A DNA stretch of 44,898 nucleotides from Lachnospiraceae bacterium (lineage in GTDB: Bacteria; Bacillota; Clostridia; Lachnospirales; Lachnospiraceae). The notes below the pieces were generated by a model. It was not told the origin of the DNA. It was given only the letters and a program-made list of their open reading frames with translations, and made no database searches. Positions 664-3,291 of this stretch are shown here, piece after piece; positions within the stretch are counted from its first letter, which is position 1; each line of letters opens with the position of its first letter. The stretch covers positions 1 to 44,898 of the forward strand of contig JAJQDE010000046.1 of NCBI GenBank assembly GCA_021202335.1. The letters are read 5' to 3'. The translations under genes were made by a program, and so were the position numbers.

Positions 664-2703
664 ATGAGACCAGAATGGACAGATTTTGTAGGCGGCAAGT
701 GGGAAAGCGAGATTAATGTGCGCGACTTCATTCAGAAGAACTTCACACCCTATGACGGTGATGAGTCCTTCCTTGCGGGACCTACACAGAACACAAAGGA
801 CTTGTGGCAGATGGTGCTTGACCTTCAGAAGAAGGAGAGAGAAGCCGGCGGTGTGCTTGATATGGATACAAAGGTTATCTCTACCATTACTTCTCATGGC
901 CCGGGCTACCTTGACAAGAGCAAGGAAACAATCGTGGGATTTCAGACAGATAAGCCCTTCAAGCGTTCTCTTCAGCCTTACGGCGGTATCAGAATGGCAG
1001 AAAAGGCATGCTCTGACAACGGCTATGAGGTAGACCCTGAAATCAGCGAGTTCTTTGCAACTCACAGAAAGACACATAATGCAGGCTGCTTTGACGCTTA
1101 CAATCAGGAAATGAGAGCATGCCGTTCTTCACATATTATTACAGGTCTTCCTGATGCTTACGGCCGCGGACGTATCATTGGCGACTACAGAAGAGTTGCC
1201 CTTTACGGTATCGACAGACTGCTTGAGGATAAGCAGGCACAGAAGGATTCTACGGGACGCGTAATGACAGACGATGTTATCCGCCTTCGTGAAGAGCTTT
1301 CCGAGCAGATGGTAGCCCTTAAGATGATGAAGGAAATGGCTGCTTCATACGGCTGTGATATCGCTAAACCCGCGTCGAACGTGCAGGAGGCTATTCAGGC
1401 TACGTACTTTGGTTACTTATGCGCAGTTAAGGAGCAGAACGGCGCGGCTATGTCACTCGGACGTACATCTACATTCCTTGATTGCTATGCACAGAGAGAT
1501 TTGAAGAACGGAACCTTCACGGAGGAGCAGATTCAGGAGTTTGTTGACCACTTTATCATGAAGCTTCGCTGCGTTAAATTTGCGCGTACACCTGAGTACA
1601 ATCAGATTTTCGCAGGCGATCCCGTTTGGGTTACAGAGTCGCTTGGCGGCGTTGGCGTAGACGGACGTCCTCTTGTTACAAGGATGTCATTCCGTTATCT
1701 CCATACATTGGAGAACCTTGGCGCAGCTCCCGAGCCGAACCTTACGGTGCTTTGGTCCACAAGGCTTCCTGAGGCTTGGAAGAGATATTGCGCTAAGATT
1801 TCGATTGCGACATCTTCAGTACAGTATGAGAACGACGACCTTATGAGAGTAACGCACGGCGATGATTATGCAATCGCATGCTGCGTATCTTCAATGGTTG
1901 TAGGTAAGGAAATGCAGTTCTTCGGCGCTCGTGCAAACCTGGCTAAGTGTCTGCTTTACGCTTTGAACGGCGGTATTGATGAGGTTACAAAGAAGCAGGT
2001 TGGTCCTAAGTATCGTCCTGTATCAGGCGATGTGCTTGACTATGATGATGTTATGAGCAAATTCATTGACATGATGGAGTGGCAGGCAGATGTATATGTA
2101 AATACGCTGAACATTATCCACTACATGCATGACAAATACTGCTATGAGAGAGCGGAGATGGCTCTTCATGACAGAGATGTCAAGAGATATTTTGCAACAG
2201 GTATCGCAGGTCTTTCAATTGTTGCTGACTCTTTATCAGCAATCAAGTATGCTAAGGTTGAGGTTATTCGTGATGAGGACGGCATTATTGTTGACTTCAA
2301 GACAACGGGCGACTTCCCTAAGTATGGTAATGATGATGACCGCGTTGACCTTATCGCACAGGATATCGTTCATAAGTTTATGACAGCCGTAAGAAGGCAT
2401 CATACTTACAGAGGCGGTATTCCTACAACATCTATCCTTACGATTACTTCAAACGTAACCTATGGTAAGGCTACCGGCAATACTCCTGACGGACGTAAGA
2501 AGGGACAGCCTTTTGCTCCCGGTGCAAACCCGATGCACGGACGTGATACGCATGGTGCGGTAGCTTCACTTTCATCAGTTGCTAAGCTTCCGTTCAAGGA
2601 TGCCCAGGATGGTATCTCAAATACCTTTACCATTATTCCGAACGCACTTGGTAAGGAAGCAAAAGTTTTCTCAGGTGACATTGAATTAGACTTGAGTAAG
2701 TAA
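664..2703 (+). CDS. pflB: Pyruvate formate-lyase core subunit, lacking the C-terminal glycyl radical domain
   Basis: Formate C-acetyltransferase converts pyruvate and CoA to formate and acetyl-CoA in anaerobic fermentation. This 679-residue protein covers the PFL barrel, including the catalytic cysteine pair in AIACCVSS (C406, C407) and the late motif [10 protein letters not shown]. It then stops after a tail ending in IELDLSK. Single-chain enzymes of about 760 residues continue here into a glycyl radical domain. That domain is encoded instead at 3049-3291 as a separate protein. The start at 664 has GGAGG 8 bases upstream and gives the usual MRPEW-type N terminus; an in-frame ATG at 598 lacks a ribosome binding site. 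The bases around the stop are tandemly duplicated with a second in-frame stop. Identity of the core is certain; dependence on the separate radical subunit is inference. Confidence 0.95.
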
Positions 2704-2757
2704 AAGAGAAAACTTTCAGTTTTTTCAGGTAATATTGAATTAGACTTAAGCAAGTAA
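2662..2757 (+). repeat. 54-bp-period tandem duplication spanning the stop codon of the lyase core
   Basis: The final codons [16 protein letters not shown] (ending 2703) are repeated in the same frame as VFSGNIELDLSK-stop (ending 2757). Across the 40 aligned bases there are five differences, all transitions. Only one codon changes the residue (D to N). The second copy lies after a TAA stop and is not expected to be translated. Confidence 0.85.
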
Positions 2758-2815
2758 TTCAATCGTAACAGGTAAATTGTTACAGTTGCCATATAGGAAG
2801 GGGAATGGTATATTT

Positions 2816-3022
2816 ATGGATGAGAAGTCAATGATTGACGACCTCGTATCTCAGCTTGACGCAGGGTTTTCCGGCAATAAGGCAGTGGGACATTTCAATG
2901 TAGATGTAAACGGGGACGCTTCCACAAAAGAAGTACAGACGCTTGGCTGTACGGACTGTTCCTCTAACCCGATGGCATGCAGTGTTCCGACGCTGCATGA
3001 AGGATTAGAGCATGAAGAGTAA
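2816..3022 (+). CDS. Small protein resembling half of a glycyl radical domain, with a Cys-containing tail
   Basis: A 68-residue protein between the lyase core and the radical subunit. Residues 6-32 ([10 protein letters not shown] then GHFNVDVN) align with the first helix and strand of the PFL glycyl domain, compare [10 protein letters not shown] then HHLNVNVLN in the next gene. After that it diverges. The radical motif RVSGYAV is absent, and instead there are three cysteines (C45, C48, C55) and an acidic C terminus. An AAGGGG ribosome binding site precedes the ATG at 2816; 26 bases separate its stop from the next start. It may be a decayed or repurposed paralogue of the radical subunit, for example a placeholder that occupies the vacant domain site, or a metal or thiol protein. 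I do not recognise it as a named family. Confidence 0.75.
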
Positions 3023-3048
3023 AATTATTTTATAGGAGGTATAAAGCA

Positions 3049-3291
3049 ATGGCTGATAACGCAGTACAGGTTGATAACTTAGTATCTTTATTGGATGGTT
3101 ACGCTACAAAGGGCGGACATCATCTTAACGTAAATGTATTGAACAGAGATACATTATTGGATGCTCAGGCACATCCTGAGAACTATCCTCAGCTTACAAT
3201 CCGTGTTTCAGGCTACGCTGTAAACTTCATCAAGCTTACACCGGAGCAGCAGGCGGATGTTATCTCTCGTACATTCCACGAAGCTATTTAA
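3049..3291 (+). CDS. grcA: Stand-alone glycyl radical subunit of pyruvate formate-lyase (GrcA/YfiD-like)
   Basis: An 80-residue protein matching the C-terminal domain that the upstream lyase core lacks. It has [15 protein letters not shown], then [15 protein letters not shown] with the radical-bearing glycine at G55, and ends in the typical ISRTFHEAI. Known stand-alone relatives (E. coli YfiD/GrcA) replace an oxygen-cleaved C terminus of full-length PFL. Here the core carries no such domain of its own, so this protein probably supplies the radical in every turnover. It has a strong ribosome binding site (TAGGAGG) and its own N terminus, and is followed by a terminator. Substrate for the activase encoded at 13797-14555 (inference). 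The symbol is given by similarity. Confidence 0.93.

Follow-up and report, generated by a model that had tools for sequence, protein, structure and literature searches.

The window, a 44,898-nucleotide stretch of DNA from Lachnospiraceae bacterium (assembly GCA_021202335.1, contig JAJQDE010000046.1), carries near its start a pyruvate formate-lyase (PFL) encoded in pieces: a PFL core, a small protein here called mid, and a stand-alone glycyl radical (GR) subunit (Table 1). An initial annotation had described a 679-residue core that contained the C406-C407 pair and stopped before the GR domain, as well as a separate 80-residue RVSGYAV protein with its own ribosome binding site, located two genes later and before a terminator. 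Each of these observations was confirmed. The core gene followed a ribosome binding site (AGGAGG, 649-654), and its product scored 722 bits against PF02901 and 1082.9 bits against TIGR01255, above the equivalog cut-off of 994.2 and over model positions 2-665 of 744. The core aligned along residues 10-680 of E. coli PFL, with C406/C407, W322, R423, and R170 corresponding to C418/C419, W333, R435, and R176, which we take to be catalytic residues of the E. coli enzyme. The C406-C407 pair was invariant across 31 cores (alignment A3). The core lacked the GR domain that single-chain PFL carries on the same polypeptide. Instead, PF01228 (Gly_radical) was divided: core residues 617-666 matched its positions 1-50, and the 80-residue protein, whose gene had its own AGGAGG at 3034-3039, matched positions 50-106. 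Since the core ended at E. coli 680 and the GR subunit spanned E. coli 677-758, the chain was broken at the domain boundary. The core stop and the GR start were separated by 345 bases with another gene inside, which ruled out a frameshift or recoding event joining the two in the window. A sequencing error joining them, named beforehand as a possible refutation, was excluded along with an assembly error by recurrence of the same split in many separate assemblies.

Table 1. Features of the split PFL locus and related elements in the window.
Feature	Position	Strand	Basis or remark
PFL core, 679 residues, without GR domain	664..2703	+	TIGR01255 and PF02901
Codons of the C406-C407 pair (E. coli C418/C419)	1879..1884	+	alignment to E. 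coli PFL
Core C-terminal extension, 12 residues, no cysteine here	2665..2700	+	almost wholly beyond the E. coli PFL alignment
mid, 68 residues: N-terminal half resembling the beginning of the GR domain, cysteine module at the C-terminal end, no glycine loop	2816..3022	+	
Cysteine module of mid, 16 residues (C45, C48, C55, P58)	2948..2995	+	alignment A1
GR subunit, 80 residues	3049..3291	+	PF01228, 82 bits
RVSGYAV loop, residues 52-58; radical glycine G55 at 3211-3213	3202..3222	+	aligned to the E. coli PFL loop
Terminator-like rho-independent hairpin and T run after the GR gene	3303..3337	+	fold -21.6 kcal/mol
Promoter-like TTGACG-18-TATAAT upstream of the core gene	547..576	+	11/12 consensus match; 8 such found versus 5.7 in shuffles
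pflA, radical SAM activating enzyme, 252 residues, in trans	13797..14555	-	TIGR02493, 297.9 bits versus cut-off 231.75

The predicted model of the core had a pLDDT of 72 overall and of about 34-40 in its disordered C-terminal tail, and matched the E. coli PFL structure 2pfl with a TMq of 0.83 (Foldseek). The GR subunit narrowly passed the NCBIfam model NF038360, named GrcA3 (159.2 bits versus a cut-off of 158), and fell below the cut-off of TIGR04365, the GrcA/YfiD model (99.3 versus 170). The hairpin behind the GR gene was not among the matches of a consensus terminator scan. The end of the core at 2665-2703 was repeated in frame after the stop codon at 2719-2757 (VFSGNIELDLSK-stop) with mostly synonymous differences; similar repeated pieces were seen at the same place in locus L041 and were not obvious in L043.

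We surveyed the occurrence of this arrangement in 150 genomes of the family, drawn evenly with one per genus and including the window's own genome. The split-PFL class was assigned by hand from profile searches and fetched loci; G089 and G045 were cut, and G006 (67% complete) had a mid without a core. Split PFL was present in 60 of the 150 genomes. Among the matches listed, three of these 60 (G119, G132, and G085) also had a full-length PFL, and close single-chain relatives of the same core were found in five more genomes (G011, G074, G096, G108, and G143). In a sample of 299 genomes from the phylum, 89 had a GR match at E values up to 1e-28; stand-alone GR frames of less than 150 residues were found in two, both of the same family, with frames of 198 and 252 residues left aside, and mid was detected at E values up to 1e-6 in the same two genomes. 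The best 80 of at least 588 stretches matching the core were also inspected, 76 of which were uncut; a split core having served as the query, this set over-represents split forms, and its members are mostly metagenome bins. Of the 76, 44 were titled Lachnospiraceae. Split forms in the set also came from Erysipelotrichaceae (Massilimicrobiota, Beduini), Oscillospiraceae, one Gastranaerophilales, and one Spirochaetales, and the assemblies of the lineage were mostly from gut and rumen by their titles. Splitting of PFL is common, in one lineage.

We further investigated if another enzyme could do the work of the split one in the window's own genome (2.74 Mb, 65 contigs, 99.1% complete). A full-length pflB elsewhere, which would have undermined the annotation, was not found: the window's core was the only PF02901 match, and the 80-residue protein was the only match to a profile of GR subunits. 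No hidden second PFL or GR gene was found in this genome. A third PF01228 match, in a 727-residue frame on contig C55 adjoining an activase-like match, reached 21.6 bits against a cut-off of 22.2. Pyruvate:ferredoxin oxidoreductase (PFOR) gave no match with TIGR02176, and the same search was positive in 10 of 14 control genomes. A PF01855 match (20.3 bits versus a cut-off of 27) lay in a 577-residue open reading frame (ORF) that read as acetolactate synthase by eye. Two matches to PF00676 as the E1 component of pyruvate dehydrogenase (PDH) exceeded the low cut-off of that model and were better explained by the transketolase and DXS families: the one at 20328-21182 was the N-terminal half of a transketolase (Transketolase_N 205 bits versus E1_dh 37), and the other lay in a 627-residue ORF that read as DXS by eye. 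Since no true PFOR or PDH E1 was found, the families searched leave PFL as the sole recognised way of turning pyruvate into acetyl-CoA, and decay of this single PFL would be costly.

The dN/dS ratios, calculated from the window and five relatives in eight pairs per gene, were 0.03-0.05 for the core and 0.02-0.04 for the GR subunit. For mid they were 0.05-0.14 in the five pairs with unsaturated dS (0.13 versus L041 and 0.05 versus L043), and the ratio was meaningless in the other three because dS was saturated (pS 0.75-0.88). By these ratios, each of the three genes has been under purifying selection. A decayed and inactive PFL that persisted by chance beside a leftover spare GR gene would agree with the missing domain and with the tail duplicated behind the core stop, and with nothing further. 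Given the selection, the conserved active site, the recurrence in 60 genomes, and the lack of any alternative PFL, PFOR, or PDH E1 in this genome, we regard such decay as very improbable. The annotation had proposed that the enzyme is obligately two-part. The finding of only one PFL and one GR gene, the selection, and the lack of another recognised route speak for the obligate character, but the count of two overlooked a third conserved component, mid.

To characterize mid, we aligned the window's protein with 43 others (A1, 44 rows). D15, H26, C48, C55, and P58 were invariant, and a P[TN]L..G[LI]D stretch was also conserved. The protein had no Pfam match at E values up to 1, no RVSGYA, and no membership in Gly_radical; NCBIfam gave one match at chance level only (E 0.098), chains of the Protein Data Bank (PDB) gave nothing better than E 0.41, and a phage collection gave no match. 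Profile comparison placed its N-terminal half with the GR family: against an alignment of 35 GR subunits (A2), hhalign returned a probability of 95.5 and an E value of 1.4e-8 over 29 N-terminal columns, and a rebuilt comparison gave a probability of 74.8 and a score of 33, where 40 column shuffles reached 10.8 at most. When run against genomes, the mid profile also recovered GR domains at E values of about 4e-7 to 1e-2, and one mid matched the GrcA3 model (E 3.4e-5). The C-terminal half was related to cysteine-containing tails that other split cores carry at their C-termini. Against 17 of 28 such tails, chosen by hand (A4; six tails among L030-L039 and the short tails of L103, L106, L112, L117, and L119 were excluded), the probability was 92.5 and the E value 4.8e-7 over 22 columns, and the rebuilt comparison scored 25 with a probability of 30.5 versus at most 9.5 in shuffles. 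Against all 28 tails the probability was 43.6 and the score 27.2, versus at most 7.4 in 40 shuffles, and against the whole-core alignment A3, in which the tail columns are mostly gaps, the probability was 12. The mid profile also directly matched two core tails (G092, E 1.5e-4; G018, E 1.4e-3). By these profile comparisons, the N-terminus of mid shares its ancestry with the first part of the GR domain, and its C-terminal half resembles the cysteine tails of cores.

The homologous part being the start of the GR domain, mid could be a decoy or placeholder that sits in the docking groove of an empty core and keeps it folded and protected until the GR subunit displaces it. The weak matches of the mid profile to GR domains in many genomes would agree with such a role, as would the proneness of cleaved E. 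coli PFL to proteolysis that is described in PMC8683613. The genomes with a fused tail, 21 in the family sample, keep the cysteines and a short stretch and not the look-alike half (by eye), which makes this explanation doubtful in our opinion.

Two side observations concern proteins of the mid type away from a PFL core. The mid of G006 (L218:1337-1576, minus strand) lay between glycosidase-like and CheC-like ORFs, with no core found in that 67% complete genome, and that of G002 (L123:3629-3898, plus strand) lay before a MoxR-like ATPase; these neighbours were named by eye. Another small protein, in the window's own genome (G000:C47, L121:4058-4303, minus strand), carried IDDxIxxLD...GV.RIKV and a different conserved end, YHHGRCDVGSPWAxG. 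It had no Pfam or NCBIfam match, was flanked by ORFs reading by eye as HemZ (630 residues) and HisS, and had similar proteins in other family genomes (L132-L136 and L138).

The place of the cysteine module was then determined in two overlapping sets, namely the 60 split genomes of the family sample and a set of 110 loci (L011-L120), of which L077 and L078 were dropped as duplicates to leave 108 distinct ones. The counts from the two sets overlap because L011 is the window's own locus, L012-L040 were drawn from the 150-genome sample, and some named contigs come from the same genomes, as the identical tail in L084 and L143 illustrates. Four of the 108 loci were cut in the core (L063, L067, L068, and L088), four were single-chain, and 100 were split. 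The GR loop was seen in 98 of the 100; L081 and L087 end too soon. Mid was present in 70 split loci (69 called by script and L076 by eye), and 28 had no mid and at least two cysteines in the C-terminal extension of the core. No locus had both and none had exactly one cysteine in the core tail. The Cys-P[TN] motif is present in the 69 script-called mids because it is part of their definition, whereas a tail was called on at least two cysteines and nothing more. The family sample gave the same picture: 39 genomes had a mid, 21 had a tail with at least two cysteines, and none had both or neither. All 21 tails were read, as were all 39 mid-type cores, none of which had a tail cysteine; in two of the 39 (G002 and G130) mid was on another contig and the core still lacked a cysteine tail. 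A split core is thus nearly always accompanied by a cysteine module, either on mid or at its own C-terminus, and this partner, present in one of the two forms in all 60 split systems of the family sample, had escaped the annotation.

The cysteines were the most constant part of the tails. C48 and C55 were invariant in mid, at least two cysteines were present in all 28 locus tails and all 21 family tails, and the C..P[TN] motif was found in only 20 of the former and 15 of the latter, with the cysteines kept where it was lost. Thiol-based redox control is a serious rival to a docking role because of this constancy. The module would then be an oxygen or redox device, whose thiols quench the radical or whose disulfide or metal site frees the GR subunit before oxygen can cut it. 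The loss of the motif with retention of the cysteines suits thiol chemistry, and protection would agree with PFL being, in the one genome examined, the only enzyme recognised as making acetyl-CoA from pyruvate. On the other hand, the conserved P[TN]L..G[LI]D stretch reads as a binding motif, and thiol chemistry needs no GR-like N-terminal half. We consider this explanation possible, at clearly less than even odds.

To follow the module through the history of the enzyme, a tree was built from 113 rows, reduced to 88 by taking out near-identical ones; the full-length loci L168, L171, and L172 were missed by the script and are absent from it. Mid and tail each needed 12 changes on this tree, at least five of which were forced by supported branches, indicating that the module moved repeatedly between the two states. 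Linkers were read in the 14 single-chain enzymes of the tree set, and the module was absent from 13. The exception, L164, is a single chain with a cysteine-rich linker between core and GR domain that stands inside the split clade; it looks like a re-joined form and is the best single case for re-fusion. Another single-chain PFL inside the split clade, L108, has a single cysteine in a linker of some 60 residues. Single-chain rows stood inside the split clade at three places, requiring 4 changes versus a mean of 13.3 after shuffling (0 of 500 shuffles as low). Re-fusion of core and GR chains is suggested by these placements. It is not proven, because the approximately unbiased (AU) test did not reject a single grouping of all single-chain rows (p 0.237), a paired comparison of splitting with the module had only four independent pairs, and the tree contains long branches. 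Three of the four pairs went in the expected direction; in the fourth, most pairings showed no difference and a few ran the other way.

Alternatively, the split could be an ordinary gene fission without functional meaning, with mid as a passenger gene. The unproven re-fusions would agree with it, as would the stand-alone GR frames in only two of the 299 phylum genomes, both of this family. A passenger would not be expected to alternate strictly with a core tail (39 versus 21 genomes, none with both), to be under selection, or to be retained when unlinked from the core, and we therefore hold mere fission to be unlikely.

The biochemistry of E. coli PFL offers a measure for the natural split. 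YfiD, a spare for oxygen-cut single-chain PFL, begins with some 60 disordered residues; according to PMC8683613, its binding to E. coli tPFL (residues 1-695) was below detection and tPFL was activated 32-fold worse than cPFL cut at 733, truncYfiD without its first 60 residues was activated fourfold worse, and the activated complexes were catalytically near normal. The natural split resembles this poorly assembling pair, with the difference that the first residue of the natural GR subunit corresponds to E. coli 677 and not 693, about 16 residues earlier. Because of this resemblance a replacement recognition element is expected. The cysteine module is the obvious candidate, since it is present in nearly all split systems seen and absent from 13 of the 14 single chains.

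Our main reading, which we hold at a probability of about 80%, is that the locus encodes a working PFL in separate pieces, in which the GR subunit would be activated by PflA on the core and the module would aid docking or activation. The thiyl cysteines and the barrel to about E. coli 680 are on the core, and the whole GR domain is on the 80-residue subunit. The GR subunit would dock into the core barrel, much as YfiD does into oxygen-cleaved E. coli PFL; PflA would place the radical on G55, and the radical would then pass to C406/C407 for turnover. The role of the module is more tentative. It may stand in for the lost covalent tether, either by holding the GR docking site or by presenting the GR subunit to core and PflA, much as residues 696-733 of cleaved E. 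coli PFL and residues 1-60 of YfiD do; we put this a little short of even odds. The GR-like half of mid suggests binding where the GR domain starts. With a similar reserve, we suppose that a degenerate GR copy, having lost its glycine loop and gained a two-cysteine module, may have become an assembly or activation factor, or a radical gatekeeper, for a freely exchangeable radical subunit, and that split PFL may generally require the module, as a separate protein or as a core tail.

Several observations weigh against these proposals. The picture as a whole is drawn from genomes. The definitions tilt towards the observed pattern, since mid by script must carry the motif and a tail is called on its cysteine count; the motif is absent from 8 of the 28 locus tails and 6 of the 21 family tails. 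Two of the 100 split loci have neither form of the module, namely L115 and L081, the latter with just 66 bases of contig left behind the core. In G012 and G026, mid terminates directly behind the CxxC and lacks the AC.VPTL half, which is therefore dispensable in those two, and the predicted model of mid is poor (pLDDT 62), with a helix at residues 3-18 only. Mid lies away from any PFL in G006, G002, and G130, and the N-terminal module of mid recurs in a second small-protein family, that of L121, without a known link to PFL. Finally, the median p of the paired split-versus-module test was 0.25 with its four pairs.

We compared the system with described ones. It is like single-chain PflB (E. coli, PDB 1h16/2pfl; TIGR01255) in passing the family cut-off, in the cysteine pair, and in the alignment over E. 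coli 10-680, and unlike it in the separate GR domain, the new core C-terminal extension, and the added cysteine module. The GR subunit resembles YfiD/GrcA (TIGR04365; PDB 6owr) in being a small GR domain on its own chain and in its RVSGYAV loop, but here it has 80 residues, no other GR subunit was found for its core, and no single-chain PFL was found in its genome. The annotation had allowed that such splits might have been described, and this was partly true. The NCBIfam model GrcA3 names a cofactor, and the search output linked it neither to a GR-less core nor to a cysteine module. By sequence, the solved chains most closely related to the core are 38la_A (687 residues) and 38lb_A (739), both named 'Formate acetyltransferase'; no GR domain was matched in them (the last 43 residues of 38lb being outside what was seen), and the two entries yielded no match to a GR chain or a mid chain. 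The 38la chain may be a cut construct, and neither entry was among the 50 Foldseek matches listed, from a library reaching to 8 April 2026. Since no GR domain was matched in these chains, short PFLs have already been seen by others, and databases already hold traces of the splitting itself. To all appearance, the third component is undescribed in the literature searched and the models and solved chains compared; no description of a naturally split PFL, of mid, or of the cysteine module was found in full-text literature, a search whose scope left out preprints and most subscription journals. Benzylsuccinate synthase (BSS) offers a partial parallel, as its beta and gamma subunits, like mid, are small partners of a glycyl radical enzyme. 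According to PMC12590467, BSS beta is an accessory subunit promoting thiyl radical formation, and beta and gamma bind [4Fe-4S] clusters and have folds like high-potential iron-sulfur proteins (HiPIP). Mid matched no such family in Pfam, NCBIfam, or PDB chains, and no kinship was seen.

Two neighbouring features of the window were noted. A divergent gene for a 64-residue DUF1858 protein (171-365, minus strand) lies just upstream of the PFL core, and transketolase is encoded as two adjoining genes (284 and 320 residues; 20328-22132, plus strand), another two-piece enzyme in the window.

Exchange of the small subunit after damage, the further proposal of the annotation, found some support. Eight of the 60 split genomes (G031, G041, G042, G064, G080, G097, G112, and G144) had a second stand-alone GR gene elsewhere (L124-L131). 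By the eye-named neighbours, three of these genes (L125, L126, and L129) lie near Crp/Fnr-type regulators, and the one of L131 lies directly before an activase-like gene. Such genes would fit a replaceable radical part and are no proof of it. The GR domain is known from phage T4, and GR domains were common in the phage collection (1539 matching records, including at least one bacterial record).

Oxygen cleaves glycyl radical enzymes at the glycine that bears the radical. In the lineage described here, the oxygen-sensitive part of PFL is made separately as an 80-residue protein, and in this genome PFL is the sole recognised route from pyruvate to acetyl-CoA. The E. coli work concerns repair of a damaged enzyme, and the split PFL provides a natural test case for docking, activation, and replacement of a separate radical domain. 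Its pieces are also a possible modular scaffold for engineering formate-acetyl-CoA chemistry. If our reading of an exchangeable radical subunit with its own assembly factor is true, these bacteria would replace the radical-bearing plug of the enzyme routinely, and not just after accidents.

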